DNA of 64,000 bases from Chloroflexaceae bacterium (GTDB lineage: Bacteria; Chloroflexota; Chloroflexia; Chloroflexales; Chloroflexaceae), in assembly GCA_025057155.1 (NCBI GenBank), contig JANWYD010000005.1, positions 62,001-126,000 of the forward strand, given 5' to 3'. The notes beneath the pieces are model-generated. The model saw nothing but the letters and a program-made list of their open reading frames with translations. It was not told the origin of the DNA and did no database searches. A program made the translations under genes and the position numbers. Positions 4,031 through 64,000 of this stretch are shown piece after piece (the first letter of the stretch is position 1; every line of letters starts with the position of its first letter).

Positions 4031-4828
4031 ATGCCATACCACGAACCCGTCGTCCTGGAGCGCCGCGACCTCGGCGCCCTGACCCTGACGCGCTGGCATG
4101 CCCCGGAACTGGCGCGCGCCGCGCGCCCCGGGCAGGCGCTGCTCGCCCGCTGCGCGCCCCCCGATAGCGATGATCCGCTCCTGCGACGGACGCTCTTTCC
4201 CGCCGGCGCTGACCCGCACTCCGGCGTGGTCGAGGTGCTGCTGGCGCACGATGAGCGCGGCCTGGCCTGGCTTGCCGCGCAGCCCCCGGGGGCGCGGCTC
4301 GATGTCTATGGTCCGGTGGGGAACGGGTTTACTCTTGCCGAGCCAACGCGCAACCTGTTGCTGGCCGGGGCCGGTTCCGCCATGCCGGCGCTATTGTGCC
4401 TGGCGCGTACCGCCGTTGCGCGGGGCATTGCCGTGGTGCTGCTGGCATCCGCCGCTGACGCCAACCTGTTGCCGCCGCCTTTCTTGTTGCCCTCCGATGT
4501 CGAGTATCTCACGAGCGCGACCGGCGAGACCGATCTGCCGGCGCTGCTCGCCGGGCGCCACCCGGACGGCCCTGTGCTGAGCGGGGGGCCGCTTGGATGG
4601 GCCGATCAGCTCTGCCTGGGGCTGGCGGCGCCCCTGTTGCCGCCGGTGATCGAGACGGTGCGCGCGGGCAAGGTGCGCTGGGAACGGGGCTTCGCGCAGG
4701 TCGTCCTGCCAGGCGCCTTGCCCTGTGGTGTAGGCACGTGCCAGGCTTGCCTGGTGGAGACCCGCGATGGCGCCCGTCTCGGATGCAAGGATGGGCCGGT
4801 CTTCGATCTACGCGATCTGCGCCTTTGA
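4031..4828 (+). CDS. pyrK: Dihydroorotate dehydrogenase electron-transfer subunit-like flavoprotein (PyrK type)
   Basis: Ferredoxin-NADP reductase-like protein of 265 residues. Expected layout: N-terminal FAD barrel, NAD-binding Rossmann part (LLLAGAGSAMPALLCLA, near residue 110) and a C-terminal [2Fe-2S] site, CGVGTCQACLVETRDGARLGC, with four Cys in the PyrK spacing followed by KDGPVFD. In PyrDB-PyrK enzymes this subunit passes dihydroorotate electrons to NAD. No pyrD lies nearby in this window, so the partner is elsewhere or the protein serves another dehydrogenase. Start ATG 4031 gives a normal family length; a longer frame from 3788 has no support. The FAD-binding RxYS-type motif is weak, so the precise pathway is less sure than the fold. 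Confidence 0.75.
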   Translation: MPYHEPVVLERRDLGALTLTRWHAPELARAARPGQALLARCAPPDSDDPLLRRTLFPAGADPHSGVVEVLLAHDERGLAWLAAQPPGARLDVYGPVGNGFTLAEPTRNLLLAGAGSAMPALLCLARTAVARGIAVVLLASAADANLLPPPFLLPSDVEYLTSATGETDLPALLAGRHPDGPVLSGGPLGWADQLCLGLAAPLLPPVIETVRAGKVRWERGFAQVVLPGALPCGVGTCQACLVETRDGARLGCKDGPVFDLRDLRL

Positions 4829-4964
4829 AATGAAAATGGGAAAACCCCGTTCCCCCACGCCCCTGCCGGATGGGCGGGCAGGGCGGCCCCACGGCAGTTG
4901 AAGGAGCAGGGGGAAACTCGGTTTCCCCATACTATTGCCTGAAAGGCGGTCGCTCCCCTCTCGG
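4829..4964. repeat. Intergenic GGGAAAC/GTTTCCCC repeat cluster
   Basis: The gap between two convergent genes holds two copies of a recurrent palindrome-like motif, GGGAAAACCCCGTTCCCCC (from about 4839) and GGGGAAACTCGGTTTCCCC (about 4911-4928), each near a CCCCTGCC tail. The same motif recurs in many gaps of this window (about 11345, 13465, 15418, 19312, 20570, 40200 and 50795). It may act as a bidirectional transcription stop, but no T-tract follows. Confidence 0.6.
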
Positions 4965-46566: not shown

Positions 46567-46595
46567 TTGACAGTTCAGACGAACAGTGGTAGAAT
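46567..46595 (+). promoter_or_regulatory. Consensus sigma-70-type promoter for the RRM gene
   Basis: TTGACA (46567-46572), exactly 17 bases, TAGAAT (46590-46595). These hexamers and spacing are identical to those of the hydrogenase operon promoter at 63004-63032. It predicts a leader of about 210 bases before the RRM start codon, long enough for post-transcriptional control. Confidence 0.75.
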
Positions 46596-49625: not shown

Positions 49626-50459
49626 ATGCTCCCCATCGGCATCTGCCTGCCCGCCTTCGGCACGACCTACGCCGAGGTGCGGCGCGCCGCGCTGGCTATT
49701 GAAGACCACGGCTATGATTCGCTCTGGCTGTGGGATCACTACGTCTCGTGGAACGATCCCCGCGAGCCGGTGCTGGAGTGCTGGACGACCCTTGCCGCCC
49801 TGGCCGAGGCTACCTCGCGCATCCGCCTGGGGCCGCTGGTGGCGAATGTCGCCAATCGCCACCCCGGGCGGCTGGCGAAGGTGGCGGCCACGCTCTACGA
49901 GATTGCCAGCGGGCGCCTGGAGGTGGGCCTCGGCGCCGGGGGCTATGCCGCCGAGCAGGAAGCCTTCGGCATCGACCAGGGCGACCGCGCCACACGCACC
50001 CGGCGATTGGAGGAGACCTTGCAGGTGCTGCCGCTGCTGTGGAGCGGCGAGCCGGTTACGTTTGAGGGGGAACTTGTACGCCTGCGGGAGGCGATCGTAT
50101 CGCCGGGGTTGCATCCCCCGCCCCGCCTCATCGTGGGCGGGCGCGGCGAGGCCCTGGCGCGTCTTGCCGGGCGCTACGCCGACGGGTTGAACCTCCAGTG
50201 GCGCTTCCGCGAGAGCTTCCCGGCGGTGCTGGCCGCCCTCGACGCCGCCCTGGCCGAGCGGGGCCGCGACCGCGCCGACTTCGACCTCTCGCTGCACGTT
50301 GATTGGGCCGTTCTGGCCGCCGACCCCGAGGGCGCCTGCGCTGCCTGGGCCGCCCTCGGCTTCACCCGCGTGATCGCCCTGGCCCCCGTGCCCATCCCCC
50401 TTGATGATCTGGCCCGTCTCGCTCCGGCAGGGCGCAACCCTCCCGGAAGTCCCGCATAA
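49626..50459 (+). CDS. Luciferase-like (LLM class) flavin/F420-dependent oxidoreductase
   Basis: 277-residue TIM-barrel protein of the bacterial luciferase-like family. Family landmarks: IEDHGYDSLWLWDHYV, TSRIRLGPLVANVANRHPGRLAKVAATLYEIASGRLEVGLGAG and PPPRLIVGGRGEALARLAGRYADGLNL. The sequence resembles F420-dependent members more than FMN monooxygenases, but cofactor choice cannot be proven here. Substrate unknown. The C-terminal residues (RNPPGSPA) are encoded by a GGCGCAACCCTCCCGG repeat that begins at 50431, so the natural C-terminus may have been replaced. Confidence 0.82.
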   Translation: MLPIGICLPAFGTTYAEVRRAALAIEDHGYDSLWLWDHYVSWNDPREPVLECWTTLAALAEATSRIRLGPLVANVANRHPGRLAKVAATLYEIASGRLEVGLGAGGYAAEQEAFGIDQGDRATRTRRLEETLQVLPLLWSGEPVTFEGELVRLREAIVSPGLHPPPRLIVGGRGEALARLAGRYADGLNLQWRFRESFPAVLAALDAALAERGRDRADFDLSLHVDWAVLAADPEGACAAWAALGFTRVIALAPVPIPLDDLARLAPAGRNPPGSPA

Positions 50460-50872
50460 GCCCTACCCGCGAGGGTTCGGGATCGTGATGACATCTTCGG
50501 GTTTTATAGCCCACGCATAAGCCCCACCCGCGAGGGTTCGGGAGTTCTCAGGTGTAGGGTTTTCCGGCGCATCCTCGCGTCGCATGCGCCATCCGGGGCA
50601 TTGGGACGCCCAGCTCCCCCCTCTCCCGCTCAGGGAGAGGGGGGCGGGGGGTGAGGATCGTAAGCGCATTGGAATGCCGAAAACCCCTTCTCGCTCGAAA
50701 AACCCTACACCTGAGGGGGTTCCGGGAGGGCGTAGCCCTTCCCGGAACCATCTCTTTCACCCCCCTGTTTGGCGGCGAAGCCCAGGGGCAGGGGCATGGA
50801 GAAACCAGATTTCCCTGTCTTCCCGCTGGCAAAGCGTCGTGGGGGAGGGGCTTGCCCTCGCACGCGACACTC
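50460..50872. repeat. 413-base repeat-filled spacer after hypE
   Basis: Two direct copies of a GCATAAGCCC(T/C)ACCCGCGAGGG element (ends near 50457 and 50515 onwards), ACCTGAGGGGGTTCCGGGAGGGC with an inverted partner (50697-50750), CTCTCCCGCTCAGGGAGAG (about 50622) and GGAGAAACCAGATTTCCC (about 50798). No gene. This is the end of the long hyp/hup operon on the minus strand and of the LLM gene on the plus strand. Confidence 0.55.
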
Positions 50873-51925
50873 TCAGCAGATGCGCGGCAACTGCTCGCCC
50901 ACCTGCATATCCACCACTCGCGTGCCGCCGATGCCCGTGCGCGCCACCACCACCCCCGGGTGCTCGGCGGTGACCTCGCCGATGATCGCCGCCCGCGCGC
51001 CGAGGGGATGCGCCCGCAGGATCGCCAGGGCGCGCTCGGCATCCTCGCGGGCCACCAGGGCCACCAGTTTGCCCTCGTTGGCGATGTAGAGCGGGTCCAT
51101 GCCCAGGATCTCGCAGGCGGCCCGCACCGGCCCCGGCACGGGCAGCGCCCGCTCGTCCAGGCGAATGCCCACCCCGGAGGCCGCGGCGATCTCGTTGAGG
51201 GTCGAGGCCACCCCGCCGCGGGTCGGGTCGCGCAGCGCGTGGACGGCGCAGCCCGCGTCCAGCAGGGCGGCGACCATGTCGTGGAGTGGCGCGGTGTCCG
51301 ACGCGATCGCCGCGCCGAACTCCAATCCCTCGCGCACGCTGAGGATGGCCACACCGTGGAGGCCAATCTCGCCGCTGATCAACACCATGTCGCCGGGTCG
51401 GGCCAGTTCCGGCCCGACCCGCACTCCGTCGGGGATTACCCCTAACCCGGTCGTGCTGACGAATACCCCATCGCCATGGCCGCGGTCTACCACTTTGGTG
51501 TCGCCGGTTACCAGGGTGACACCGGCCCGCCGCGCCGCCGCGCCCATGGTCTCGGCGATGATGCCGAGCTGGTCGAGGGGCATGCCCTCCTCGATGATGA
51601 AGCTGGCCGTCAGGTACAGGGGGCGCGCGCCGCACATGGCCAGGTCGTTGATCGTGCCGTTCACCGCCAGGTCGCCGATATTGCCGCCGGGAAAGAAGAG
51701 CGGGCGCACCACGAAGGCGTCGGTGGAGAGAGCCAGGCGCGCGCCGCCGACCTCAACTACCGCGCCGTCGCCGAGTTGTTCCAGGGCGGCGTTGCGGAAC
51801 GCCGGCAGAAACAGGTGGCGCACCAGGTCCGCCGAGAGCTTGCCGCCGCCGCCATGGCCCATCACGATGGCCGGGTAGTCCCGCAGGGGGAGGGGGCAGG
51901 TCCAGTCCTCGAACGAGAGGCTCAT
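50873..51925 (-). CDS. hypE: Hydrogenase maturation protein HypE
   Basis: Makes the cyanide ligands of the NiFe site by dehydrating the thiocarboxamide on its own C-terminal Cys. 350 residues, full length, ending in the required PRIC with Cys last. The N-terminal ATP-binding region has [34 protein letters not shown] and [15 protein letters not shown] follow. Its ATG overlaps the stop of hypD by four bases (ATGA). It is the last gene of the operon. Confidence 0.97.
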
Positions 51926-53037
51926 CGCGCGACCTCCACGTCCCCGGCGGGGATAAAGCGCCCGTACTGGTAGTAGGCTGCGCAGGCGCCCTCACTGGAG
52001 ACCATCGTGGCTCCCAGGGGGGTGCGAGGGGTGCACTGCTTGCCAAAGGCGGGGCACTGGTTGGGCTTGAGCAGCCCCTGGAGCACCTCGCCGCTGCGGC
52101 ACAGGGGCGACTCGGCGGTGTTGATGTGGCCCACCTCGAAGCGCGCCTCGGCGTCGAAGCGCCGGTAGCGCTCGCGCAGACGCCAGCCGCTCTGGGGAAT
52201 CATACCGATGCCCCGCCAGGTCCGGTCGGTGACCTCGAAGACCTGCTCGAGCACCGCCTGGGCGGGCTGGTTGCCCTCGGGCCGCACCGCCCGCGGATAG
52301 GCGTTCTCCAGCTCGGCGCGCCCGGCTTCGAGTTGCGTCACCGCCCGGCGAATGCCCTCCAGAATATCCAGCGGCTCGAAGCCCGTCACCACAATCGGCA
52401 CGCCGTAGCGTTCGACCAGCGGCCCGTACTGCCAGGTGCCCATGACGCTGCACACGTGACCGGCGGCCAGGAAGGCCTGCACGCGGTTCCTGGGCGACTC
52501 CATAATCGCGCTGATCGCCGGCGGCACCAGCACGTGCGAGACCAGCATCGAGAAGTTGGTCAGCCCCAGCCGTTCGGCCTGCACGACGGCCATGGCGTTG
52601 GCGGGCGCAGTGGTCTCGAAGCCGATGCCAAAGAACACCACCTCGCGGTCGGGGCGCTGCTGGGCCAGCCGCACCGCGTCGAGCGGCGAGTAGACGATCC
52701 GCACGTCACCGCCACTGCTCTTCACCTGAAACAGGTCGCTATTACTGCCGGGCACCCGCAGCATATCGCCAAAGGAGCAGAAGGTCACCTCGGGACGAGC
52801 GGCAATCGCCAGGGCTTTATCAATGATCTCCAGCGGCGTCACGCAGACCGGGCAGCCCGGGCCGTGGATCAGTTCGATCTCCGGCGGGAGCAACTGATCA
52901 ATGCCGTTGCGGATGATCGAGTGGGTCTGGCCGCCACAGACCTCCATAATCGCCCAGGGCCGGGTGATGACGCGCCGGATCTCCTCGAGTAGCCGGGCGG
53001 CCACCTCGGGATTGCGGAACTCATCGAGGTACTTCAC
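51922..53037 (-). CDS. hypD: Hydrogenase maturation protein HypD
   Basis: [4Fe-4S] scaffold on which, with HypC and HypE, the Fe(CN)2CO unit is assembled. 371 residues with the conserved motifs [21 protein letters not shown] (catalytic Cys pair), [11 protein letters not shown] and the C-terminal cluster cysteines in [38 protein letters not shown]. It overlaps hypC and hypE by short ATGA-type overlaps, so the three are translated in step. Confidence 0.97.
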
Positions 53038-53300
53038 GCCGTTGCCTCCTCATCGTCCTGGCGCAACTCCTCTTCGAGCATGCCCAGTTCATGAAACAGC
53101 GCCAGGGTCTCTTTCGCCGATTGCTCATCAAGTTGCGTAATCGCGAAGCCGACGTGGACGATGGTGTAATCGCCGACCTGGATGTCGGGCAGGTAGCTCA
53201 GGCAGACATCCTTGACAATGCCATCGAAGTCTACCTTGCCCATGCGCACGCCGTCAACGTCGCTAATGGCAATCACCCTGCCGGGGATGCCCAGGCACAT
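53034..53300 (-). CDS. hypC: Hydrogenase maturation chaperone HypC
   Basis: Carries the Fe(CN)2CO group with HypD and delivers it to the hydrogenase large subunit. 88 residues starting MCLGIPGRV. Function requires Cys as residue 2, which fixes the start at ATG 53300 rather than the GTG one codon upstream. It continues with [33 protein letters not shown], the usual HypC core. The start overlaps the stop of the NHL gene (TGATG). Confidence 0.96.
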
Positions 53301-54427
53301 CACCCACCTCCTTTCCCGGGGCCATCGAGTGTCCAGATCATAACACGATTATTGCCCGAATCGGCGATTGCCAGGCGCCGATGGTGCAACCAGAGACCGT
53401 AGGGCCAGCAGAGGGTATCGGAGGCGACGGCGCGCCAGCGGTTTTCTCCGTGGTCGTCGAAGTTGGCCTGGCCCAGCACCACATCGGCGGGCGCGAAGGC
53501 CCCCCTCCGCGGCGCGTGGTTCCAGAGCAGCACGCGGTTGTTGGCGGTATCGGCCACGGCCAGGCGCTGGCCTTCGAGGGCCAGGGCGTAGGGAAAGCGC
53601 AGGCGGCGGGGGCCCTGGGGCACGTGGGCCAGTTCGCTGCTGCTGGCAAAATCGGGCTGGCCGAGCACCAGATCGGCCGGGCGGTCGGCTTCAGGCGGGG
53701 GCGACCAGCCCAGCACGCGGTGGTTGCCCGCGTCGGCGACGTAGAGCGTAGTTGCGTCGCCAGCGATGGCGTGCGGCCAGCGGAAACTGGCCGGACCGGG
53801 GGGGCCGCCCCGGTTCTCGTCGTGGGCGGTGGGCATGGGCTGGCCCAGGATCAGATCGGGCGCGCGACCGGGTTCCGGCAGGCCGCGCCAGCCCAGCACG
53901 CGCCGGTTGCCGGTGTCGGCGACGTAGAACCACCCGGCGCTCCAGCCGAGGCCGTAGGGCCAGTAGAGGCTCAGTGCGTCGGGCGCGCCGCCGCGGTTTG
54001 GCTCAACTGCGTTGAGGCCGGTCTGGCCGAGGGCGTAGTCAGGTGGCTCGGCCAGGCGTTCCGGCACACGTTCCCACACCAGCACGCGGTGGTGCCAGGC
54101 ATCGGCGACATAGAGCCGCCCGGCGACCACCAGCACCCCGGTGGGCAGGTGCATGCCATTGGCCGGGCCGCGCCCGCCTGCGGCGGGCCCCTCGCTGGTA
54201 AAATCCGGCTGGCCCAGCACCACGTCGGCGGGCGCGCCGTTATGGTCGGGCAGCCCGCGCCAGATCAACACGCGATGGTTGCCCGTATCGGCCACTACCA
54301 GCCGCTCATCATCCAGGTAGACCCCGCGGGGCGCGTAGAGTTGCGCGGGGGTGGGCCGGGCCGCGGGCAGCGCCAGCCCCCCCGGTGATTCGGCCCCCAG
54401 GCGCAGAGAGGGTGTCCAGTTGGCCAT
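53300..54427 (-). CDS. NHL-repeat beta-propeller protein of the hydrogenase operon
   Basis: 375 residues forming six NHL repeats, each ending in a variant of VADTGNHRVLIW: VADTGNHRVLIW, VADAWHHRVLVW, VADTGNRRVLGW, VADAGNHRVLGW, VADTANNRVLLW and IADSGNNRVMIW. Between them a second motif recurs (ADVVLGQPDF, YALGQTGLN, LILGQPMP, LVLGQPDF, VVLGQANF). No signal peptide, so it is cytoplasmic. NHL proteins accompany group 2a hydrogenases in actinobacteria and other phyla (recalled); a role as scaffold in assembly or electron transfer is inferred. Confidence 0.88.
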   Translation of the reverse strand: MANWTPSLRLGAESPGGLALPAARPTPAQLYAPRGVYLDDERLVVADTGNHRVLIWRGLPDHNGAPADVVLGQPDFTSEGPAAGGRGPANGMHLPTGVLVVAGRLYVADAWHHRVLVWERVPERLAEPPDYALGQTGLNAVEPNRGGAPDALSLYWPYGLGWSAGWFYVADTGNRRVLGWRGLPEPGRAPDLILGQPMPTAHDENRGGPPGPASFRWPHAIAGDATTLYVADAGNHRVLGWSPPPEADRPADLVLGQPDFASSSELAHVPQGPRRLRFPYALALEGQRLAVADTANNRVLLWNHAPRRGAFAPADVVLGQANFDDHGENRWRAVASDTLCWPYGLWLHHRRLAIADSGNNRVMIWTLDGPGKGGG

Positions 54428-54454
54428 TTCTTTACCTTCGCGAGCGCTGCGGAG

Positions 54455-54556
54455 GCGGGGAGGCGGGGAGGTGTGGAATAATCACCTCTACATCTCCACA
54501 CCTCCACACCTCCACACCTCCACACCTCCACACCTCCACACCTCCACACCTCCCTG
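54455..54556. repeat. Octamer tandem repeat CTCCACAC between NHL and NifU-Rieske genes
   Basis: About seven to eight head-to-tail CTCCACAC units (54495-54553), preceded by a short opposed GGGGAGGTGTGGAATAAT arm. Same family as the hairpins at 20861, 37655 and 60703 but dominated by one arm, so it looks expanded by slippage. Confidence 0.85.
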
Positions 54557-54560
54557 CCCT

Positions 54561-55415
54561 TCACTCCGCCAGCCGTACCCAGATCACGCCCTCCTCAACA
54601 CGCAGCGGAAAAGGTTCGAGTTGGGCCTGGGGCGCGGTGAGGCATTCGCCGCTGCCAGCGTCGAAGCAAAACCCGTGCCAGGGGCAGGTGAGCGTGCCCG
54701 CGGCAGGATCGAGCAGCCCGCCATCGAGGGGCAGGCCCTGGTGGGCGCAGGCATTGCGGAAGGCGCTGAGGCGGTGATCGAGGTTGATAATCAGCGCCTC
54801 AACCGGTCCAGCGCGCAGGGCGACCATCGTGCCGGGAGGCACGTCCTCCACACGGGGGCCGCGGGTCCAGCCGGTCTCGGCCCTGACGCTGATCGCCTCA
54901 GGGCGGATCAGCGCCGGGCCTGGTTCGTTCGGTAGCACCTCGACCTCGCGGATCTCGGGGATCTGGCTGAGAATCGCCTCCTCGACCCCCTCGCGCAGCG
55001 TCACCGCCGACATCGAGCAGCCGTTGCAGGCTCCGTGGAGGTGCACGAAGACCGTCGCCTCGCGCACCTCGACCAGTTCCACGTCGCCGCCGTGGGATTG
55101 CATAAAGGGCCGGACCTGTTCCAGCACCCGGGCGACGCGGGTCGCCAGGTCGAGCCGCACCAGCCCGTGCATAGCGAAGAGGGCGTAGACCAGGGGATCG
55201 TCAACCAGTTCAAAGAGCAGTTCTTTGCCGCGCGGGTCAGCCTTGAGCCGCTGGATGATCGTTGTCAGGCCAGCCTTGTGGAAGGCTTCAATGGCCTGTT
55301 TGAGGGCAATGGCTCGGTCGCGGGCGCCAGCATCGAGCGCGCGCACCTCGGCCATTGCCCGGTCTACCCGTTCGGCAAGGGTTTCAAGCGTTTCAGGCTG
55401 CCGGGTGACCGTCAC
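54561..55415 (-). CDS. NifU-like Fe-S domain fused to a Rieske domain
   Basis: 284 residues. The N-terminal 90 are helical. Residues about 95-175 are a NifU C-terminal-type scaffold with GACNGCSMSAVTLREGVEEAI (CxxC). Residues about 185-282 are a Rieske ferredoxin with CAHQGLPLDGG (C-x-H) and CPWHGFCFD (C-x2-H). The combination suggests a dedicated electron carrier or cluster donor of the hydrogenase. The same fusion occurs in huc/hup-type operons of actinobacteria (from memory). It lies between orf115 and the NHL gene. Direct partner is not shown. Confidence 0.9.
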   Translation of the reverse strand: MTVTRQPETLETLAERVDRAMAEVRALDAGARDRAIALKQAIEAFHKAGLTTIIQRLKADPRGKELLFELVDDPLVYALFAMHGLVRLDLATRVARVLEQVRPFMQSHGGDVELVEVREATVFVHLHGACNGCSMSAVTLREGVEEAILSQIPEIREVEVLPNEPGPALIRPEAISVRAETGWTRGPRVEDVPPGTMVALRAGPVEALIINLDHRLSAFRNACAHQGLPLDGGLLDPAAGTLTCPWHGFCFDAGSGECLTAPQAQLEPFPLRVEEGVIWVRLAE

Positions 55416-55487
55416 GGAATCTCCCTTCTAGCAGGAGGTGTAGGGCAATCAGATTCCCTGCTCGCCAACCGCGCCCGCAACAACCTC

Positions 55488-55835
55488 TCAGGGTCGCTCC
55501 AGCGTCTCGATGGTCTTCGTAGCGAGAAGGTCGGCGAAAGCGCGGCGAGCCATCTGTTGCAGCATCGTTTCAACGGCGCCGGCCTCAGGCGGAGCGACGT
55601 GGCGGCGCGCGAGGGCCTGGAGGACAAAACACGCTCCCCCCGGTGTGTCGAGCAGAAAATCGCGAAAGATCGCCTCCACGAACTGGTCAAGCCAGACGCC
55701 TTCGCCCTGCGGATTGGCGCGCAGGCGCGCAAGGGCGGTTGCCGCGCCCTGGTTGCGTTGCACCAGACGCTCGGCGAAGCGCTCGACCGCGAGGGTGAGC
55801 AACAGGTCAAACTGCTGGCGCTGATACGCCTCCAT
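55488..55835 (-). CDS. Uncharacterised 115-residue protein of the hydrogenase operon
   Basis: All-helical prediction, no cysteines except one in the middle (GGACFVLQALA), no membrane segment. Starts MEAYQRQQFDLLLTLAVERFAERLVQRNQG. Its start lies inside the end of the TPR gene (29-base overlap), so translation is probably coupled. No family recognised; possibly a structural or assembly factor of the group 2a enzyme. Confidence 0.65.
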   Translation of the reverse strand: MEAYQRQQFDLLLTLAVERFAERLVQRNQGAATALARLRANPQGEGVWLDQFVEAIFRDFLLDTPGGACFVLQALARRHVAPPEAGAVETMLQQMARRAFADLLATKTIETLERP

Positions 55836-57063
55836 CGCGGTGCGCCTCCTGCTGCGCCGCTATACGGCGTTCGATTTCTCCGAGTGTCTCGCGAACAGTC
55901 GCGGCGGCCTCGTGGTCGCCGCCAGTGGCGAAGAGCCTGGCCGCCTCTTGCAGTTTTGGCTGTGCGTGGGTAAAGATGCCCAGATGGGCCAGGGCGTTGC
56001 CCTGGTTGGCCAGCACGCGCCCGTATCCGAGGGGATCAGCATCGGGGTCGCGGGTGGCCAGCACCTCCTCGTACAACGCAATCGCCTCGGCCAGATGTTC
56101 CTCGGGCCGGGCGGAGGGCAGGTATTGCAGCGCATTGGCCAGGTTCAGGCGGACGCTGCTCCACAACCACGGATGGCCCTCGGGCGTAACCGTGTTGAGG
56201 GCCTCGCGCAGGGCCTGCACGGCGATAGCCATGCGCAACTGATCGCTGGCCTCCGTGAGGGGCATAGCCAGGTAAGCCAGGGCCAGGTTATTCTGCGCCA
56301 GGGCGTACATGTCGGGATGGGTCGCCCGCTTGAAGAACCGCAGAGCCTCCTGGTAGCATTTGACTGCTTCGAGGAGCGGGGCGCGCTGGTCACCGGCGCG
56401 CTCCTGGTAGAGCATTCCCAGATTGAGCCAGGCGTGGGCGCGCGCATCCTCCAGACCGCTGCCGGCCAGCAGGGCCAGCCCCTGGCGGTAGTGCTGGATC
56501 GCCAGCGCCTCGGCCCCGGGGCGCCTGAGCTGCGTCTCGGCGAGGGTGAGGTGCGACTGCGCTGCCAGCAGGGGCGAAACAGGGGTGGCGCAGGCGATAG
56601 CGGCCTCGAGATCGACCTCAGCTGCGGCGGGCGCGTCCCGCTCCAGGGCTGCGGCAGCGCGGGCCATCAGCACGAAGGCGCGCACCTCGCCGGTGGCCTC
56701 GGCGGGGTCGGGTGGCTGACCGGCCAGACCGAGGGTGTAAGCCGCCACCTCAACGAGCAGCCTCAGTTCACCCTGCGCCTCGGCGCGGAGCGCGGCGTAC
56801 AGCGCCGGGTCGCCGCTGAGCACGAAGCGGTTGTAGCGCGCTTCAGGCAAGGGATCGCCCTCCAGGGCGGCCAGGGCGTCGGGCGTGTCGCCAGCGCAGG
56901 CGCAGGCAAAGAAACGCCAGGCATCCGGCAGCGTGTCGGGAACGCGGCCACACAGCAGTTCGGCAAGCGCCGCTTCCCCTCCGGCGATGGGCGGCAACAC
57001 CAGATGGCCCGCTGGCAGCGGAAAAATGCCCAGAGGTTGGGGGCGAACAGTAAGATCATTCAT
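55807..57063 (-). CDS. TPR-repeat protein of the hydrogenase operon
   Basis: 418 residues of tandem helical repeats. Recognisable TPR units include AIQHYRQGLALLAGSGLEDARAHAWLNLGMLYQE, AVKCYQEALRFFKRATHPDMYALAQNNLALAYL and AIALYEEVLATRDPDADPLGYGRVLANQGNALAHLG. The N-terminal 130 residues are divergent (PLPAGHLVLPPIAGGEAALAELLCGRVPD). TPR proteins mediate protein contacts, so a chaperone or scaffold role in hydrogenase assembly is likely (inference). ATG 57063 and 57069 are both possible. It sits between orf95 and orf115. Confidence 0.85.
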   Translation of the reverse strand: MNDLTVRPQPLGIFPLPAGHLVLPPIAGGEAALAELLCGRVPDTLPDAWRFFACACAGDTPDALAALEGDPLPEARYNRFVLSGDPALYAALRAEAQGELRLLVEVAAYTLGLAGQPPDPAEATGEVRAFVLMARAAAALERDAPAAAEVDLEAAIACATPVSPLLAAQSHLTLAETQLRRPGAEALAIQHYRQGLALLAGSGLEDARAHAWLNLGMLYQERAGDQRAPLLEAVKCYQEALRFFKRATHPDMYALAQNNLALAYLAMPLTEASDQLRMAIAVQALREALNTVTPEGHPWLWSSVRLNLANALQYLPSARPEEHLAEAIALYEEVLATRDPDADPLGYGRVLANQGNALAHLGIFTHAQPKLQEAARLFATGGDHEAAATVRETLGEIERRIAAQQEAHRDGGVSAPAV

Positions 57064-57242
57064 ATGCATTGCAAATCATGCCAATGCGAATGTAGATTTT
57101 GAGTTGCGACCCGCATCGTTCAGCCCTCTCCCCAACCTATTTCCGCCGGAAGAGAGCCGCCACCCTCCCCGCCCTCGAAGGAGGTGGGGAGGGTGTGTTG
57201 CAGATTCCTTCGGTAACAGGCCGCCCAGGCCCGAGGCCCATC

Positions 57243-57530
57243 TCACAGCGTGACACGCAGCGCGCCGCCGCCCTCGTCCCAGAAGGCCGGTCGCGGTCCC
57301 GGCGGCGTGCCCGAAGGCAGCAGATCCCAGATCAGCACGCTGCGGTCGCCGCGAGCGTTGCGCTGTTTGAGCAGCAACCCGCCCGCGCCCGGCCCGCGCG
57401 TGGGCAACAGCCAGAGTTCACGGCCCTTCGGCAGGGCCACCATCGTGTTGTGCGGAAAATATCGTTCCGCCACATCCGCGGGCAAATGCAGGTACCCCAG
57501 GGAGGTCAATTCGATGTGAGTGGTTGACAT
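57243..57530 (-). CDS. Uncharacterised 95-residue beta-rich protein of the hydrogenase operon
   Basis: Follows the HupL protease gene by 22 bases. Strand-rich: HIELTSLGYLHLPADVAERYFPHNTMVALPKGRELWLLPTRGPG, then LLLKQRNARGDRSVLIWDLLP and GGGALRVTL. No cysteines. It may be the small third protein that occurs near group 2a hydrogenases, but I cannot confirm homology to HucM. It shares an E(L/I)W(L/I)(L/V)PT segment with the protein at 48857. A 180-base spacer separates it from the TPR gene. Confidence 0.65.
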   Translation of the reverse strand: MSTTHIELTSLGYLHLPADVAERYFPHNTMVALPKGRELWLLPTRGPGAGGLLLKQRNARGDRSVLIWDLLPSGTPPGPRPAFWDEGGGALRVTL

Positions 57531-57552
57531 ACATGTTGCCCCTTGGTGCTAC

Positions 57553-58038
57553 TCAGCGAACCTCCGATGTCCAGCGTAGCGGCGCGCTCCATTCGGCCAG
57601 GAGACGCTGCGCCAGGCCCTCCATGCTCTCGGCGACGGCCGGGCTGAGCGGCGCCCCCGGGTCGAAGCTGGCGCCCTCAATCAGGTAGACCGTCACGTCG
57701 CGCGGGTATTCCTCCTTGAGCAGCCAGCGGGCGAAGGCCAGGGCATGATCCCAGCGAAAGGCGTGCAGGTTCATGCCCCGGAGCGGAGGGATCTGTTCCA
57801 GGGCAGCGCCGGGCACCCGGTAGAGACTGCCCGGCACCGCGCCGGTGCGCGAGGCGTCTACGATGATCACCCGCGCGGCCCCGCGCATCTGAAAGGCCAC
57901 GTCCATTCCCGCCGTGCCGCCGTCCACCAGCCGCGCGCCCGGCGGCGGGCCAAGCTCCCAGAGCCGGCGAATGAGGATCGGGCCGACTCCATCGTCGCCC
58001 CGCAACAGGTTGCCGCACCCGATAATGACCGTTTCCAT
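57553..58038 (-). CDS. Hydrogenase maturation protease for HupL
   Basis: 161 residues, HyaD/HupD/HoxW-type nickel-dependent endopeptidase. VIIGCGNLLRGDDGVGPILIRRL holds the metal-binding Asp at the N-terminus; VIIVDASRTGAVPGSLYRV and FRWDHALAFARWL (His) complete the site. It is encoded 8 bases after hupL, which identifies its client. It differs from the protease at 37182 in the HDTSLG versus RWDHALA region, in line with distinct client recognition. Confidence 0.92.
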   Translation of the reverse strand: METVIIGCGNLLRGDDGVGPILIRRLWELGPPPGARLVDGGTAGMDVAFQMRGAARVIIVDASRTGAVPGSLYRVPGAALEQIPPLRGMNLHAFRWDHALAFARWLLKEEYPRDVTVYLIEGASFDPGAPLSPAVAESMEGLAQRLLAEWSAPLRWTSEVR

Positions 58039-58046
58039 ACTGCCGC

Positions 58047-59687
58047 CTACGCCCCCTCGCCGATGCGGAAGCGCGCCAGTTCCTTGCCGCTCTTCTCGTC
58101 GTAGGCGTGGACGGTGCAGACCAGGCAGGAGTCGAAGCTGCGGGCCACGTGCCCCAGTTCGACCGGATCCTTCGGGTCGGCGATGGGCGTGCCGACGAAG
58201 GCCTGCTCCATCGGCCCGTTGACCTCTTTGCGATCGCGGGGGCCAATGTTCCAGGCCGTGGGCGTGACCACCTGGTAGTTCTCGATCTTCCCATCCTTGA
58301 GCACGATCCAGTCGGAGAGACTGCCCCGCGCCGCTTCCGTCGAGCCGAAGCCGCGCCCATCGGGGAGTTCCTGAGGCTTGATGTAGAACTTCTCGTGCAG
58401 GTCGAGTTCATCGAGCCATTTACGGGCCAGTTTATAATACTTGGGAGCCTCGTGCATGCGCGCCAGCACCCGCACCAGCACACTGGGGCCAACGGTCGTA
58501 ACCGCGTCGTAGAAGAGCGGATCGTAGTCCTGCCACGGCTCAGCGCCGGGCTTGCCGGCGATCACCTGCCGCGCCAGCGGGCCGGCCTCCAGGGGCTTCG
58601 CGCCAACGCCGGGGATCTCGTAGCGCGGGGCCTTGGCCCAGGTGTACTTGCCCTGCTTGCGCCCGATCGCCGGGTCCAGCGGCTCGGTGCGGCCCTCAAA
58701 GGGGTGCAGGGCGTGGTTGCCCTCGAAGAAGGCGTGGGTCACATCCTCGCGCACATTGGCCTGGTCGAAGTCGTAGTACACGCCGTCGGCAAAGACCCCC
58801 GAGCGGTTGATCAGCGCGGCATTACGGCCCTCGATGGTCGGGCGCGCGTACTTCTCGGGGTTGAAGTAGGTGCCGGTCGCCAGGTAGTTGCCAAAGCCCG
58901 CGCCAAACGTATCCAGGCCAATCCGCTGGGCGAAGCGAATGAAGAAGCCGCAGTCGGAGTTGTAATGGCTCTCCTTCTCGTCCACCCAGGCCAGCACATC
59001 GGCCCAGGAGCGGTTCTCGAGCCAGCGGTCCACCGAACAGCCCAGCCAGCGTTTCTCCAGCCACTCGTCCTTCCAGTACTCCAGGATGGCGATCGAGCGC
59101 GTCACATCGGCGAGGGTAGGGCCGCACATGACCCCGCCGGGGATCATGAAGCTGGAGTGCGGCCACTGGCCGCCGTAGATCGCGTAGACCTCCACTGGCT
59201 TGCCCGAGAGAGTCACTCCGACCTCGTAGCTTGTACCGACGAAGGGCGCGAAACGGCGTACTGCCTCTTCATAGCCCTCGGCCCGGGCGTAGTTTTTGTT
59301 CACCAGGTCAATGGCGAAAAGGGCGTAGAACCAGCGCGGGATGCTTTGCAGCGTCTCGCACGCCTGGGCGATATTGCGCACCAGGGTGGCATTGGGAGGC
59401 AGTTCGGTTTTCCAGGCGGTATCGAGAGCGTAGGCCGCCTTGTAGAGGTGGCTGCCGCCGCAGATGCCGCAGATGCGCGGGGTCACGATCAGGCCAGCCT
59501 GGGGGTCCTTGCCTCTAAGGATGATCTCAAAGCCCCGGAACATCGCCGCCTCGGTCCACGCCCCGGTCACCACTCCGTCACGGACGGACACGCGCACATC
59601 GAGGTCGCCCTCTACCCGACCGAGGGGGCTGACGTGCAGATCGAGGGCCGTAGCGCCCGCGGGGGAAAGATCGGTCACGGTAGCCAT
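58047..59687 (-). CDS. hupL: NiFe uptake hydrogenase large subunit, group 2a
   Basis: 546 residues from ATG 59687. NiFe ligands: RICGICGGSH (L1) and DSCLVCTVH at the C-terminus (L2). A 19-residue tail, AYDEKSGKELARFRIGEGA, follows the final His and should be cleaved by the neighbouring protease. No selenocysteine. The protein matches cyanobacterial/actinobacterial HupL-HucL in motifs such as WPHSSFMIPGGVMCGPT and the C-terminal spacing. It oxidises H2, often at low concentration in this group, feeding electrons to the respiratory or photosynthetic chain. Confidence 0.95.
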   Translation of the reverse strand: MATVTDLSPAGATALDLHVSPLGRVEGDLDVRVSVRDGVVTGAWTEAAMFRGFEIILRGKDPQAGLIVTPRICGICGGSHLYKAAYALDTAWKTELPPNATLVRNIAQACETLQSIPRWFYALFAIDLVNKNYARAEGYEEAVRRFAPFVGTSYEVGVTLSGKPVEVYAIYGGQWPHSSFMIPGGVMCGPTLADVTRSIAILEYWKDEWLEKRWLGCSVDRWLENRSWADVLAWVDEKESHYNSDCGFFIRFAQRIGLDTFGAGFGNYLATGTYFNPEKYARPTIEGRNAALINRSGVFADGVYYDFDQANVREDVTHAFFEGNHALHPFEGRTEPLDPAIGRKQGKYTWAKAPRYEIPGVGAKPLEAGPLARQVIAGKPGAEPWQDYDPLFYDAVTTVGPSVLVRVLARMHEAPKYYKLARKWLDELDLHEKFYIKPQELPDGRGFGSTEAARGSLSDWIVLKDGKIENYQVVTPTAWNIGPRDRKEVNGPMEQAFVGTPIADPKDPVELGHVARSFDSCLVCTVHAYDEKSGKELARFRIGEGA

Positions 59688-59719
59688 AACGCATCGCTCC
59701 TCTGGTCCCGCGTCGCGGG

Positions 59720-60691
59720 CTACACCACAAACATATCTTCTTTCGACCACCTGGGCGCCGCCACGCGAGCCGCTGCTGCCAGGGCCATGTAGCTGATCGG
59801 ATCGGTGCCGGTGGGTACGTCGCGAGGAATAGTGCCGCTGACCTTCTGGGTTTTAAACACTGTGCCGGGCGCCAGGTCGAAGAAGGGAAACTCCGGTTCG
59901 GTGCAGCCGGTGCAGGGCATGCCGGCGCGGGTCTTGGAGGACTGGCGGTTCCAGAGGATGCGATTGCAGGGCGAGCGGGTCATCGGGCCGCGGCAGCCAA
60001 ACTCGTAGAACAGACAGCCGGTGCGGGTGCCCTGTCCGAACTCCATAGTGGACTGCTTGTACTCGAAGAATTGCACGCGGGTGCAGCCGGTCTGGGTAAA
60101 GCTCTTAAAGAAGGTCTGCGGGCGCTGCAACTCGTCGAGGGCCACGTCGCCGGCGCGCCCGCTGGCCACAGCTACCAGGATCTGGGTGACCCAGTCAGGG
60201 TGGGCGGGGCAACCCGGGATGTTGATCACCGGAAGGCCAGCTTTGGAGCGCCAGTCGCCGCCGAGGAACCCGCCTTTCGCCTTGCGGAGGTACTGCAGGC
60301 CGACCGACTCGCTGGGATTGGGGGCCACGGCGGGGATGCCGCCCCAGCAGGCGCAATCGCCGATCGCCACCACGATGCTGGCCTGGTTGGCCAGTTCATA
60401 CACCCAGTCCTTCATCGGCCGATCGGCGAACATATCGTAGCGGCCCGAGCCGTTCGGCCCCAGGATCACCGTCCCCTCGAACACGAAGATATCGAGCGGA
60501 CGTTCGCCACGGGCGCAGGCGTAGAAGAGTTGCTGCGCGGCCTCGCCCAGCTCCATCCCCAGCGAGGGATGCCAGAGAATCTCGATCCCGAAGTCCGTCA
60601 CCAGATCACAGGCGCTCGGTTCCTCAGCGTTGAGGAAGGACATGGTGTTGCCGCTACATGCCCCTCCCTGGAGCCATAACAGGGTTGCCAT
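59720..60691 (-). CDS. hupS: NiFe uptake hydrogenase small subunit, group 2a
   Basis: 323 residues, opening LLWLQGGACSGNTMSFLNAEEPSACDL with no Tat signal peptide, as in group 2 enzymes. Fe-S ligands are visible in the N-terminal C-x-G segment, GDCACWGGIPA, NIPGCPAHPDW, and the C-terminal GCRGPMTRSPCNRILWN and MPCTGCTEPEFPF. The sequence is strikingly like cyanobacterial HupS. With hupL, separated by 32 bases, it forms the enzyme core. Electron acceptor is not encoded nearby except for the NifU-Rieske protein as a candidate. Confidence 0.95.
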   Translation of the reverse strand: MATLLWLQGGACSGNTMSFLNAEEPSACDLVTDFGIEILWHPSLGMELGEAAQQLFYACARGERPLDIFVFEGTVILGPNGSGRYDMFADRPMKDWVYELANQASIVVAIGDCACWGGIPAVAPNPSESVGLQYLRKAKGGFLGGDWRSKAGLPVINIPGCPAHPDWVTQILVAVASGRAGDVALDELQRPQTFFKSFTQTGCTRVQFFEYKQSTMEFGQGTRTGCLFYEFGCRGPMTRSPCNRILWNRQSSKTRAGMPCTGCTEPEFPFFDLAPGTVFKTQKVSGTIPRDVPTGTDPISYMALAAAARVAAPRWSKEDMFVV

Positions 60692-60702
60692 ACCGGTCTC
60701 CT

Positions 60703-60797
60703 CTGGAGGTACGCGGAGGTGTGGAGGTGTGGAGGTGTTGTGGAGCTATGAACCTGTGTAAAAATCACCTCTACACCTCTACCCCTCCACACACCTC
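60703..60797. repeat. GTGTGGAG hairpin between hypB and hupS
   Basis: Left arm CTGGAGGTACGCGGAGGTG and further octamers to 60745; right arm CACCTCTACACCTCT through ACACACCTC (60766-60797). It overlaps the end of hypB: the last codons (CVEG and stop) come from the right arm. Loop contains AACCTGTGTAAAAAT. Confidence 0.85.
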
Positions 60798-61456
60798 GCC
60801 ATCAACCACGCCATCCAGACGTCCATACCCGCCCCGGTGCGAGCGGAGGTTTCAAAGATGGTAATTCCGGGCCGTACCTCCTTGATATTGCGGCGCATCA
60901 GAGCCAGATCGATCCCGCATGCCTCGGCCAGGTCGAGCTTGGTGATGATAGCGACATCGGCGGAGTTGAACAGCACCGGGTACTTCACCGGCTTATCCTC
61001 GCCCTCGGTGACCGACAGCAGCACCACGCGCACCTGCTCGCCCAGGTCGTAGCCAGAGGGGCACACCAGGTTGCCGACGTTCTCGATGAAGAGATAATCC
61101 AGTTCCGCCAGGTTCCAGCCCGCCGCCTCCAGGTGCGCGCTGATCATCTCGGCTTCCAGGTGGCACATATCGCGGGTTTGTATCTGGCGGACGAGGGCGC
61201 CGCTGCGTTCCAGGCGCCGGGCGTCGTTATCGGTCGCCAGGTCGCCCACCAGGGCCGCCGGGCGCCGCCCGGCCCGCACCAGTTCGGTGAGGGTGCGTTC
61301 CAGAAGGGCCGTCTTGCCGCTGCCGGGACTGGAGACGAAGTTGAGCGCCAGCACCCCGGCCTCCTGAAAACGCTCGCGCAGGCGCGCTGCCAGTTGATCG
61401 TTCTTGCTGAGGACACCGGTGCGGATCTCCAGCAAACGCGTAGATACGGTTGACAT
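60779..61456 (-). CDS. hypB: Hydrogenase nickel incorporation GTPase HypB
   Basis: SIMIBI GTPase that inserts nickel with HypA. 225 residues; P-loop SSPGSGKTALLE (about 42-53), then LVGDLATDNDARRL, FIENVGNLVCPSGYDLGE with the metal-site Cys, and ITKLDLAEACG (NKxD equivalent TKLD). The N-terminal His-rich stretch and CxxCGC motif of some HypB proteins are absent. Its start overlaps the stop of hypA by one base (TGATG). The last residues are encoded by the octamer repeat. Confidence 0.95.
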   Translation of the reverse strand: MSTVSTRLLEIRTGVLSKNDQLAARLRERFQEAGVLALNFVSSPGSGKTALLERTLTELVRAGRRPAALVGDLATDNDARRLERSGALVRQIQTRDMCHLEAEMISAHLEAAGWNLAELDYLFIENVGNLVCPSGYDLGEQVRVVLLSVTEGEDKPVKYPVLFNSADVAIITKLDLAEACGIDLALMRRNIKEVRPGITIFETSARTGAGMDVWMAWLMARCVEG

Positions 61457-61824
61457 CAGCGTTCCTCCATCGCCGGTTCAGGGTCGGGAACCTCGATCCC
61501 GGTCACCTCAAGCTCGCGCCCCTGGCGGATGTGCATACTCGGAGCGCCGCAGAACGGGCAGCGAAAACTGCCTTCCTCCGGCTGCACGTCGCGACCGCAG
61601 GGGTCGCATGCCAGCACCAGCGGAACCGTCTCGATCTCCAGCCGCGCCCCTTCGACCAGCGTATGCTGAGCCGCGAGCGGGAAGCAGAACTCCAGAGCCT
61701 CCCGCACCACGCCGGACATGGCCCCCAGGCGCAGGTGCACCGCGACCACGCGCTCGGCCCCGGCCCGGCGGGCCGCCTCCTCGACGATTTCCACGAGACT
61801 CAGAGCAATGGATAGTTCGTGCAT
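61456..61824 (-). CDS. hypA: Hydrogenase nickel chaperone HypA
   Basis: 122 residues. The start is fixed at ATG 61824 because HypA needs MHE at the N-terminus for nickel binding; an in-frame ATG at 61839 would add five residues. It continues LSIALSLVEIVEEAARRAGAERVVAVHLRLGAMSGV. The zinc site has CDPCGRDVQPEEGSFRCPFCGA (two CxxC pairs). It acts with HypB in nickel delivery. Follows the DUF1641 gene by 11 bases. Confidence 0.95.
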   Translation of the reverse strand: MHELSIALSLVEIVEEAARRAGAERVVAVHLRLGAMSGVVREALEFCFPLAAQHTLVEGARLEIETVPLVLACDPCGRDVQPEEGSFRCPFCGAPSMHIRQGRELEVTGIEVPDPEPAMEER

Positions 61825-61835
61825 GTGGCGTCTCT

Positions 61836-62699
61836 TCACCGCTCCAGCGAATGCCCGAAACGCCTCCCGAAGGCCAGGATGAGCGCCGCGGCCCGCTGCA
61901 CATCGGGGTCGCGCAGCGCGCCCAGCAGGCTCAGCAGGCCCCGCTTCGGCGGGTGGCGGCGCTGTTCTTCGTAGCTGGCCACAAAGGCGTCGCCGGCCTG
62001 CCCGACCAGCTTCACCGTCGCCGGCTGGAACACGCCGGAGCTGAGCAAGGCGTCAAACTCTTGTGAGGCAACAAAGGGCGCCAGCCGCTCGATAATCTCG
62101 ATGAACTTCGGCGCCACGGCGACAAGCCGGGGGAGGTAGGGCAGCAGCACGGCCAGCGAGAGGATCTGGGCGATCACCTCGTTGCTTTCGCTGGGAATCG
62201 CGCCGCGCACATCGTCGAGGCTGGAGCGGATATTGTCTGTCAATTCCTCGCCGCGCTGCAACAGGCTGTTCGCCGCCGTAAGCGCGAAGGCGACCAGTTC
62301 GAGCTGGCCCAGGAGCTGGTTGATGGCCTGGAGCGTTGCCGGGTTGCGCAGGGCGGCAAGGGTGGCCTGAAACTCCGGTTGGGCCGACAGTTGCGCCAGT
62401 TGGGTTGCCGTAGCCGTAATGGCGGGCAGTTCCTTGCCCAGGACCGCCAGTTCGCGCAGGTAGATCCCGCCGTCTGCTGGCAGGGCCTGCCGCACCTCAT
62501 CGAGACTGGCGGCGACATTGTCGGTGATTGTCTCACCCCGGCGGATCAGCCCGTCCAGCGCACTGGCCGAATAGGCCAGCAGTTCGGCGTGGTCGAGCAA
62601 CTGGTGCAGCGCCTCAACCGTGCGCGGCTCGTTCAGACGATCAAGCAGCGCCTCCAGCGAGGCGCTGCGGGAAGAAGTGGCGCCGTTGCTGCTCATCAT
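61836..62699 (-). CDS. DUF1641 protein with internal duplication, first gene of the hydrogenase operon
   Basis: 287 residues, all helical, no cysteines or membrane segments. Two internal copies of about 85 residues are visible: ELLAYSASALDGLIRRGETITDNVAASLDEVRQALPAD (about 37-74) and ELVAFALTAANSLLQRGEELTDNIRSSLDDVRGAIPSE (about 122-159). The second is followed by the conserved DUF1641 C-terminal part. Family members occur beside hydrogenase, Hdr and formate dehydrogenase genes (recalled), function unknown. Start ATG 62699 or 62696; the upstream in-frame extension to 62759 lacks conservation. Confidence 0.8.
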   Translation of the reverse strand: MMSSNGATSSRSASLEALLDRLNEPRTVEALHQLLDHAELLAYSASALDGLIRRGETITDNVAASLDEVRQALPADGGIYLRELAVLGKELPAITATATQLAQLSAQPEFQATLAALRNPATLQAINQLLGQLELVAFALTAANSLLQRGEELTDNIRSSLDDVRGAIPSESNEVIAQILSLAVLLPYLPRLVAVAPKFIEIIERLAPFVASQEFDALLSSGVFQPATVKLVGQAGDAFVASYEEQRRHPPKRGLLSLLGALRDPDVQRAAALILAFGRRFGHSLER

Positions 62700-63003
62700 G
62701 GGAACACTCTTCACCGGTCTCGAATGGGGAAACCGTTGCGCTTCCAGGAGCCTGTTCAAGAATAGCCAGAAGCCGACCGCGTCGAGATGCGCCGCACCCG
62801 ATCAGCAATCGAAAATCTACTATCGCGCCGGGCTTTCTCGCTTCTCTATCCGCCGAAGGGAGCCTGTTACAAGAGCGCGGCTTGCCAGTGCCGCGCCTTT
62901 AGAGCGCAAGATACTTTGTCCCAACCGGCGCGGTCAGGGAAAGCCTTCGCCGTGCACGCCCGCAACCAGGGGGAAGTATTTATTACTCTTGGTGATTGAC
63001 CTT

Positions 63004-63032
63004 ATTCTACCTGAGACAGATGACCCTGTCAA
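63004..63032 (-). promoter_or_regulatory. Consensus sigma-70-type promoter of the hup/hyp operon
   Basis: On the minus strand: TTGACA (63032-63027), exactly 17 bases, TAGAAT (63009-63004). Transcription should start near 62997, about 300 bases before the DUF1641 start codon. The hexamers are the same as those of the RRM promoter at 46567-46595. Confidence 0.75.
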
Positions 63033-63044
63033 CTGCTTTGACAG
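63026..63044. promoter_or_regulatory. Candidate operator: palindrome over the -35 box
   Basis: CTGTCAA-CTGCT-TTGACAG, a perfect 7-5-7 inverted repeat. It contains the -35 hexamer of the hup/hyp promoter, so a bound dimeric regulator would block or reshape RNA polymerase access. The half-site TGTCA is of the CRP/FNR-superfamily kind, but the spacing (N7 between TGTCA and TGACA) does not match a family I can name. Confidence 0.55.
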
Positions 63045-63393
63045 TGAAAATAATTTTTCATTTGCTTTGCACGAGGCGAACGAGAGCTTGACGGCTCGCG
63101 CCGGCGGGGCCTTCTGTAAACGACTGGAGAATCTGGGAGGGCGATGCCCTGTCCCTGTCCATCCGGGAATGGACGGTAGCCGATGCCGAGGGTTGCAGGC
63201 GGGAGAGGGAAAGCTGGCTTTTCTCCGCAACTGTCTGCAAGGTGCAGCCTTCTCAGCAACTATCTTCCCTGACTTCTATAACCGAACGTGCCGGAGGCGC
63301 CGGTAAGGAAGGAGCAATCCGCGCCTATCGGCGCCCTGAGCTTGTCGAAGGATGCTCGCTGCTCGTATACCTGGCTAACTCCTTAAACTGCAT

Positions 63394-63399
63394 TATAAT
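63394..63399 (+). promoter_or_regulatory. -10 box giving a leaderless hypF transcript
   Basis: Perfect TATAAT six bases before ATG 63406. Transcription would start at the start codon. No Shine-Dalgarno sequence is present. -35 region weak (near 63371-63376). Confidence 0.6.
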
Positions 63400-63405
63400 C
63401 AAACC

Positions 63406-64000
63406 ATGCAGACGGAAGAACGCGAGGGCGTGGCGCGCTGGCGAGTGCTGGCGCGGGGGATCGTGCAGGGGGTCGGCTTTCGCCCCTTTGTCTTCGGGCT
63501 CGCCCATCGGCTGGGGCTGGCGGGCTTCGTGCGCAACGACAGCACCGGGGTCACGATCGAGATCGAAGGGCCGCCCGGCAGCCTGGAGCAGTTCGTGGCG
63601 GCGCTGCGCTCTGAGGCGCCGCCACTGGCGCGGATAGAGACCCTGGAGCGCGCGCCAATGCCACCCCGGGGTGACAACGGCTTCACCATCGTCGCCAGCG
63701 CCGCCACGGCCACCCGGCGCACCCTGATCGCTCCCGATAGCGCCACCTGCGCCGATTGTCTGCGCGAACTGCGCGATCCCGCCGACCGGCGCTACGGTTA
63801 TCCCTTCATCAACTGCACCAACTGCGGCCCGCGCTTCACTATCGTGCTCGACATCCCCTACGACCGCGACCGCACGACCATGCGCCAGTTCACCCTCTGC
63901 CCCGCCTGCCGCGCTGAGTACGAGAATCCCCTCGACCGGCGCTTCCACGCCCAGCCCAACGCCTGCCCCGTTTGCGGGCCGCAGTTGCAGTGGGAGGCGC
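63406..64000 (+). CDS. hypF: Carbamoyltransferase HypF, N-terminal part (cut by window edge)
   Basis: Supplies the carbamoyl group that becomes the cyanide ligands, passing it to HypE. The first 198 residues are present. They include the acylphosphatase-like domain (RGIVQGVGFRPFVFGLAHRLGLAGFVRND, with the catalytic Arg region) and the start of the zinc-finger-like region (CADCLREL, NCTNCGPRFTI, CPACRAEYENPLDRRFHAQPNACPVCGP). The YrdC and carbamoyltransferase domains would lie beyond the window. Divergent from the rest of the hyp genes, with its own -10 box. Confidence 0.95.
   Translation, partial: MQTEEREGVARWRVLARGIVQGVGFRPFVFGLAHRLGLAGFVRNDSTGVTIEIEGPPGSLEQFVAALRSEAPPLARIETLERAPMPPRGDNGFTIVASAATATRRTLIAPDSATCADCLRELRDPADRRYGYPFINCTNCGPRFTIVLDIPYDRDRTTMRQFTLCPACRAEYENPLDRRFHAQPNACPVCGPQLQWEA

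Follow-up and report, generated by a model that had tools for sequence, protein, structure and literature searches.

A palindrome over the −35 hexamer of a predicted Huc-type hydrogenase operon in a Chloroflexaceae bacterium: candidate operator or promoter part

Introduction

In a genome of the family Chloroflexaceae, a perfect palindrome covers the −35 hexamer of the promoter in front of a predicted hydrogenase operon, which raises the question of whether it serves a dimeric regulator as an operator or arises from the parts of a general promoter. Group 2a hydrogenases allow growing bacteria to oxidise H2 at atmospheric levels, and the HupR site of purple bacteria, with the form TTG-N5-CAA, is also a palindrome at a hydrogenase promoter; the order at the present locus differs from that of the HupR site, being CAA-N5-TTG and overlapping the −35 of a sigma-70-type promoter. 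Within the same family, the huc operon of C. aggregans (CAGG_0470-0471) resembles the present one in holding large- and small-subunit, Rieske, NHL, and maturation genes, and its hucL transcript is reported to be 15,000-fold lower in stationary than in exponential phase, with no significant difference between ambient and 10% H2 (PMC7784904). In hot-spring mats, transcription of C. aggregans hucL is reported to rise at 15:00 and 05:00 (PMC8004040). Such strong growth-phase dependence makes it unlikely that constitutive expression alone describes the case, and some form of control exists in the family, although the passages of PMC7784904 on hucL name no regulator. The promoter of the DUF1641-hyp-hup operon was not the subject of any title that we found, which is no proof of its absence in print. 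If the palindrome were an operator, it would give a handle on growth-phase control of a group 2a hydrogenase. In any case, the elements of this promoter lend themselves to separate testing.

Methods

The analysis covered a window of 64,000 nucleotides, and coordinates without a genome or locus label refer to it. The promoter was compared across 18 orthologous loci upstream of DUF1641 genes, 17 of which came from 41 genomes of the family. Matches were present in 18 of the 41 genomes; G023, with one weak C-terminal match, was dropped, and weak second matches within other genomes were left out. Among 14 further loci, 11 belonged to genomes already in the set, two Gemmata loci were not counted, and one, L071, was added as the eighteenth locus. 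The four loci of the genus (the source genome, G000, and G025, G026, and G027) together with L071 are referred to as the near loci. The ATG at 62699 is common to the orthologs and was used as the start of the first gene, and near-copies of the palindrome were placed inside or outside genes by open reading frames (ORFs).

Results and discussion

The operon downstream of the promoter

The 14 genes over about 12 kb that an initial annotation had placed behind the promoter were found as 14 same-strand ORFs running from 62699 to 50873 (11.8 kb) on the minus strand. Family matches identified a DUF1641 gene, first in the operon (61836-62699), hypA (61456-61839), hypB of the CobW/HypB/UreG family (60779-61456), the hydrogenase small-subunit gene hupS/hucS (59720-60691), the large-subunit gene hupL/hucL (58047-59690, with the start at 59690 chosen in an ORF that opens at 59750), a maturation protease gene of the HycI family (hupD; 57553-58038), a NifU-Rieske fusion (54561-55415), an NHL-repeat protein (53300-54427), hypC (53034-53303), hypD (51922-53037), and hypE (50873-51925). 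No family above the cut-off was found for the remaining three of the 14 proteins, namely a 95-aa protein (57243-57530), a TPR-like protein that stayed below the Pfam cut-off (55807-57069), and a 115-aa protein (55488-55835). The predicted large subunit aligned over residues 14-528 with the Huc large subunit of Mycobacterium smegmatis (PDB 7uus) at an E-value of 4e-284, the next match of another kind standing at 1e-63; this likeness concerns the enzyme only. With a large subunit closest to Huc and with Rieske and NHL neighbours, the predicted products are a [NiFe]-hydrogenase of the Huc type (group 2a) and the proteins that mature it. A scan within the operon returned two weak minus-strand promoter sites, each scoring 9 of 12, at 57084 and 53257 (with both strands counted, three sites where 1.1 were expected), and a single transcript, with one promoter controlling all 14 genes, is plausible.

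The promoter and its A/T tract

On the minus strand, TTGACA (63032-63027) is followed after 17 nt by TAGAAT (63009-63004), which makes 11 of 12 consensus bases and places the promoter in the sigma-70/SigA class, whose hexamers resemble TTGACA and TATAAT and are separated by 16-18 nt. Both hexamers are invariant among the five near loci. The 64-kb window contains two copies of the pattern TTGACA-N17-TANAAT, compared with 0.01 in shuffles, and between 62500 and 63600 two promoter-like sites were found against 0.3 in shuffles. The second occurrence in the window, again TTGACA-N17-TAGAAT, lies on the plus strand at 46567-46595. Across the 18 orthologous loci, a sigma-70-type promoter scoring at least 10 of 12, with spacers of 16-18 nt, was present in 17, the exception being G007 with a score of 8; the operons of Chloroflexus share with the present one a sigma-70-type promoter before DUF1641.

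Upstream of the −35 by 14 nt lies the A/T tract AAAATTATTTT (63047-63057, minus strand), the sole exact match to AAAWWTWTTTT, the distal part of the UP-element consensus, in a window that is 67% GC; none appeared in 100 shuffles. The 17-bp consensus, given as AAAWWTWTTTT-NNN-AAA in PMC2412878, is matched exactly in its distal part, and a proximal AAA stands 4 nt before the consensus −35 (0-5 nt being the expected range), but 7 nt rather than 3 separate the two parts, and we therefore call the tract UP-like. The distal score was 11 of 11 in the source genome, G025, and G027, 10 in G026, 7 in L071, and 5-7 in the other 13 loci. We know of no test of UP elements in Chloroflexota. The initial annotation was right to the base about the two hexamers but did not mention the A/T tract upstream of the palindrome; its description of a strong hup/hyp promoter is supported by the conservation across orthologous loci and by this tract. 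A second inverted repeat, TGAAAA-N4-TTTTCA, surrounds the tract (63045-63060); it was rejected as an operator, being exact in three of the five near loci, with a joint count of both repeats that was reached by 48 of 500 shuffles.

Judged from the −10 hexamer, transcription would start some 7 nt past it, near 62997, and would leave about 298 nt of 5′ leader (62700-62997, minus strand) ahead of 62699, in keeping with the leader of some 300 bases that had been proposed. The first ~100 nt of this leader (62888-62990) are partly conserved across the five near loci, and about 90 of its bases (62737-62826) form part of a dispersed repeat with a copy at C11:74843-74929 in the source genome and many copies in G024. 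A structured leader or riboswitch was considered and rejected: there was no Rfam match at gathering score across 50000-64000 and none up to E = 1 across 62650-63450, none of five leader segments had a clear folding advantage over shuffles (z of 0.44, 0.49, −0.77, −0.24, and 2.03), and although a consensus fold had two-sided change in six of its 29 pairs, the covariation term was only −0.28.

The palindrome and its conservation

The palindrome CTGTCAACTGCTTTGACAG (63026-63044) reads CTGTCAA-N5-TTGACAG with no mismatch, and, as had been described, it is a perfect 7-5-7 repeat that covers the −35 and lies partly upstream of it. The inner six bases of its right arm are the −35 hexamer itself; since that arm is a consensus −35, whatever is surprising about the palindrome is confined to the left arm. 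In a genome of 5.13 Mb, chance would produce the exact 14-base string 0.005-0.008 times; it was found once. With any sequence allowed, perfect 7-5-7 palindromes number 21 in the window, and the present one is therefore notable mainly for its position on the −35; palindromes with loops of 3-8 number 101 in the window against 51-66 in five simulations.

The proposal that the palindrome is an operator, as first put forward, found no support in the orthologous promoters, from which its absence had been named beforehand as the refuting outcome. Outside the near group, all 13 loci pair 0-4 of the seven positions, and within it the absence is partial, with seven pairs in the source genome, which alone among the 18 loci has the full 7-bp palindrome, six in G025 and G027, and five in G026 and L071. 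Four of the seven pairs are invariant among the five near loci and the other three change only by breaking, with no compensated change. The shorter TCAA-N5-TTGA is retained in all five, and the minus-strand base directly after the −35 (63026), the last of the right arm, is G in the source genome alone and T, T, T, and C in the other four. Six of seven positions of the left arm are invariant across the four loci of the genus, as are 23 of 26 in the block with the A/T tract, so that conservation at this level is not specific to the palindrome.

Two relatives inform the reading of these bases. The locus of G027 keeps the promoter (11 of 12, spacer 18) in front of an operon (L183, G027:C14, 13955-18427) that consists of a shortened DUF1641 gene, hypA, hypB, the 95-aa gene, hypC, hypD, and hypE; the 20 kb read there contain no match to the hupS, hupL, hupD, TPR-like, 115-aa, NifU-Rieske, or NHL genes, and in the whole genome nothing closer to HupL than a relative at 38%, or to HupS than one at 33%, exists. 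Since the promoter of G027 serves maturation genes, a general promoter fits better than a hydrogenase-specific switch, which does not disprove a regulator. L071 has lost the A/T block (5 of 23 bases identical), yet in the 15 bases that adjoin the −35 on its upstream side it agrees with the source genome at 12, in a segment picked after the alignment had been seen; something besides the tract thus appears to be constrained.

Near-copies of the palindrome

The search for the motif elsewhere in the genome, which the initial annotation had suggested, produced an excess of near-copies but no clear regulon. At two or fewer mismatches, the palindrome had 11 sites in the source genome against nine for a reversed control, and at one or fewer, TGTCAA-N5-TTGACA had 11 sites there against 1.7-3.0 expected, and 45 in five genomes of the genus against eight for the reversed pattern. 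Six of the 11 near-copies in the source genome are intragenic, one of them in an Uma2-family gene, and the five outside genes are those at hup, at an HU-protein gene, and at C8:73958, C9:156539, and C30:25265, of which the C30 site is the −35 of a different promoter. The element before the HU-protein gene, CGTCAAAGGTATTGACA (G000:C7:89566-89582; L003), is a similar half-palindrome of the form GTCAAAG-N3-TTGACA, identical in the source genome, G025, and G026. In these three genomes, the shorter TCAAAG-N3-TTGACA occurs at hup and at HU only, and matches to it were present in 26 of the 41 family genomes. At the HU-gene site of G027 and G024, the left arm alone is altered and TTGACA is unchanged, so that the copy is kept in three of five genomes.

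Weighing the explanations

We favour, at a probability of about 0.6, the reading that this is a strong vegetative promoter bearing an UP-like tract, and that the palindrome has not been retained as an operator for the sake of its symmetry. A housekeeping promoter of the sigma-70/SigA class would drive the DUF1641-hypAB-hupSL-...-hypCDE genes by means of its consensus −35, its near-consensus −10, and the A/T tract shared at genus level, which the alpha subunit of RNA polymerase would contact. The palindrome would then be a product of promoter parts, the −35 hexamer supplying the right arm and the upstream contact region, where TCAAAG adjoins the −35, the left. Counting against this reading are the bases that L071 keeps beside the −35, the 7-nt gap within the UP-like element, the excess of near-copies of the palindrome, and the growth-phase dependence of hucL in C. 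aggregans. A regulator specific to the genus is less likely, but the bases flanking the −35 are similar in the relative that lacks the tract.

Such a regulator might be a repressor of the genus whose operator is CTGTCAA-N5-TTGACAG, with GTCAA-N5-TTGAC as its core, and whose dimer would block the −35 and turn the operon off, for instance in stationary phase. The position of a perfect palindrome on the −35, the TCAA-N5-TTGA core common to the near loci, the excess of near-copies, and the sharing of TCAAAG-N3-TTGACA by hup and HU all speak for this repressor, which we nonetheless consider rather unlikely: symmetry decays with no compensation and is absent from every locus outside the near group, most near-copies in the source genome are intragenic and one of the others is a −35 in its own right, the HU left arm changed alone in two genomes, and no transcription-factor family was found in the subset of neighbouring proteins scanned. 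That one repressor acts on GTCAAAG-N3-TTGAC both over the −35 of the Huc operon and before the HU gene seems very improbable; if it did, hydrogen oxidation would be tied to growth phase and to the state of the chromosome. An activator or other regulator could also bind an asymmetric site, TCACTRTCAAAG, just upstream of the −35, with the palindrome unneeded. The bases that L071 keeps, both without the A/T tract and without the third palindrome pair, are consistent with such a site, and the inverted repeat that Chloroflexus carries at the same place suggests that regulator sites may occur there in the family. We regard this as unlikely too, given that the segment was chosen with the alignment in view, that the proximal AAA of an UP element could account for those bases, and that the genome-wide search covered one variant of the motif.

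The Chloroflexus repeat is distinct from the palindrome examined here, which Chloroflexus lacks in spite of the changing expression of hucL in C. aggregans. In the hup promoters of its eight genomes (L017-L024), CAYAACC-N3-GGTTRTG stands directly upstream of the −35 with at most one mismatch in each; the difference in sequence led us to reject it as the same operator. It is 92.9% paired in place against 25-39% when slid, its covariation comes to one pair with two-sided change in two genomes (a level reached by 150 of 500 shuffles), and genome-wide it had no enrichment in the eight genomes, with 29 sites against 28 control sites. Being the better kept of the two, it is a rival candidate for an operator in the family.

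Further observations at the locus

The retention of the 95-aa gene in G027, where the hydrogenase genes are gone, hints at a role of its protein in maturation. In L071, the gap between hypA and hupS is 150 bases (4738-4888), and the 7.9-kb locus has no hypB match. In L015 and L029, parts of the DUF1641 protein match one another's positions, so that the protein is apparently internally repeated; the G027 version lacks a middle part. On the plus strand, a divergent hypF, identified by family match, begins at 63406 and continues past the window end at 64000; a TATAAT in the 63394-63408 region ends 6 nt before its ATG, as also in G025 and G027, and the hypF mRNA may be almost leaderless.
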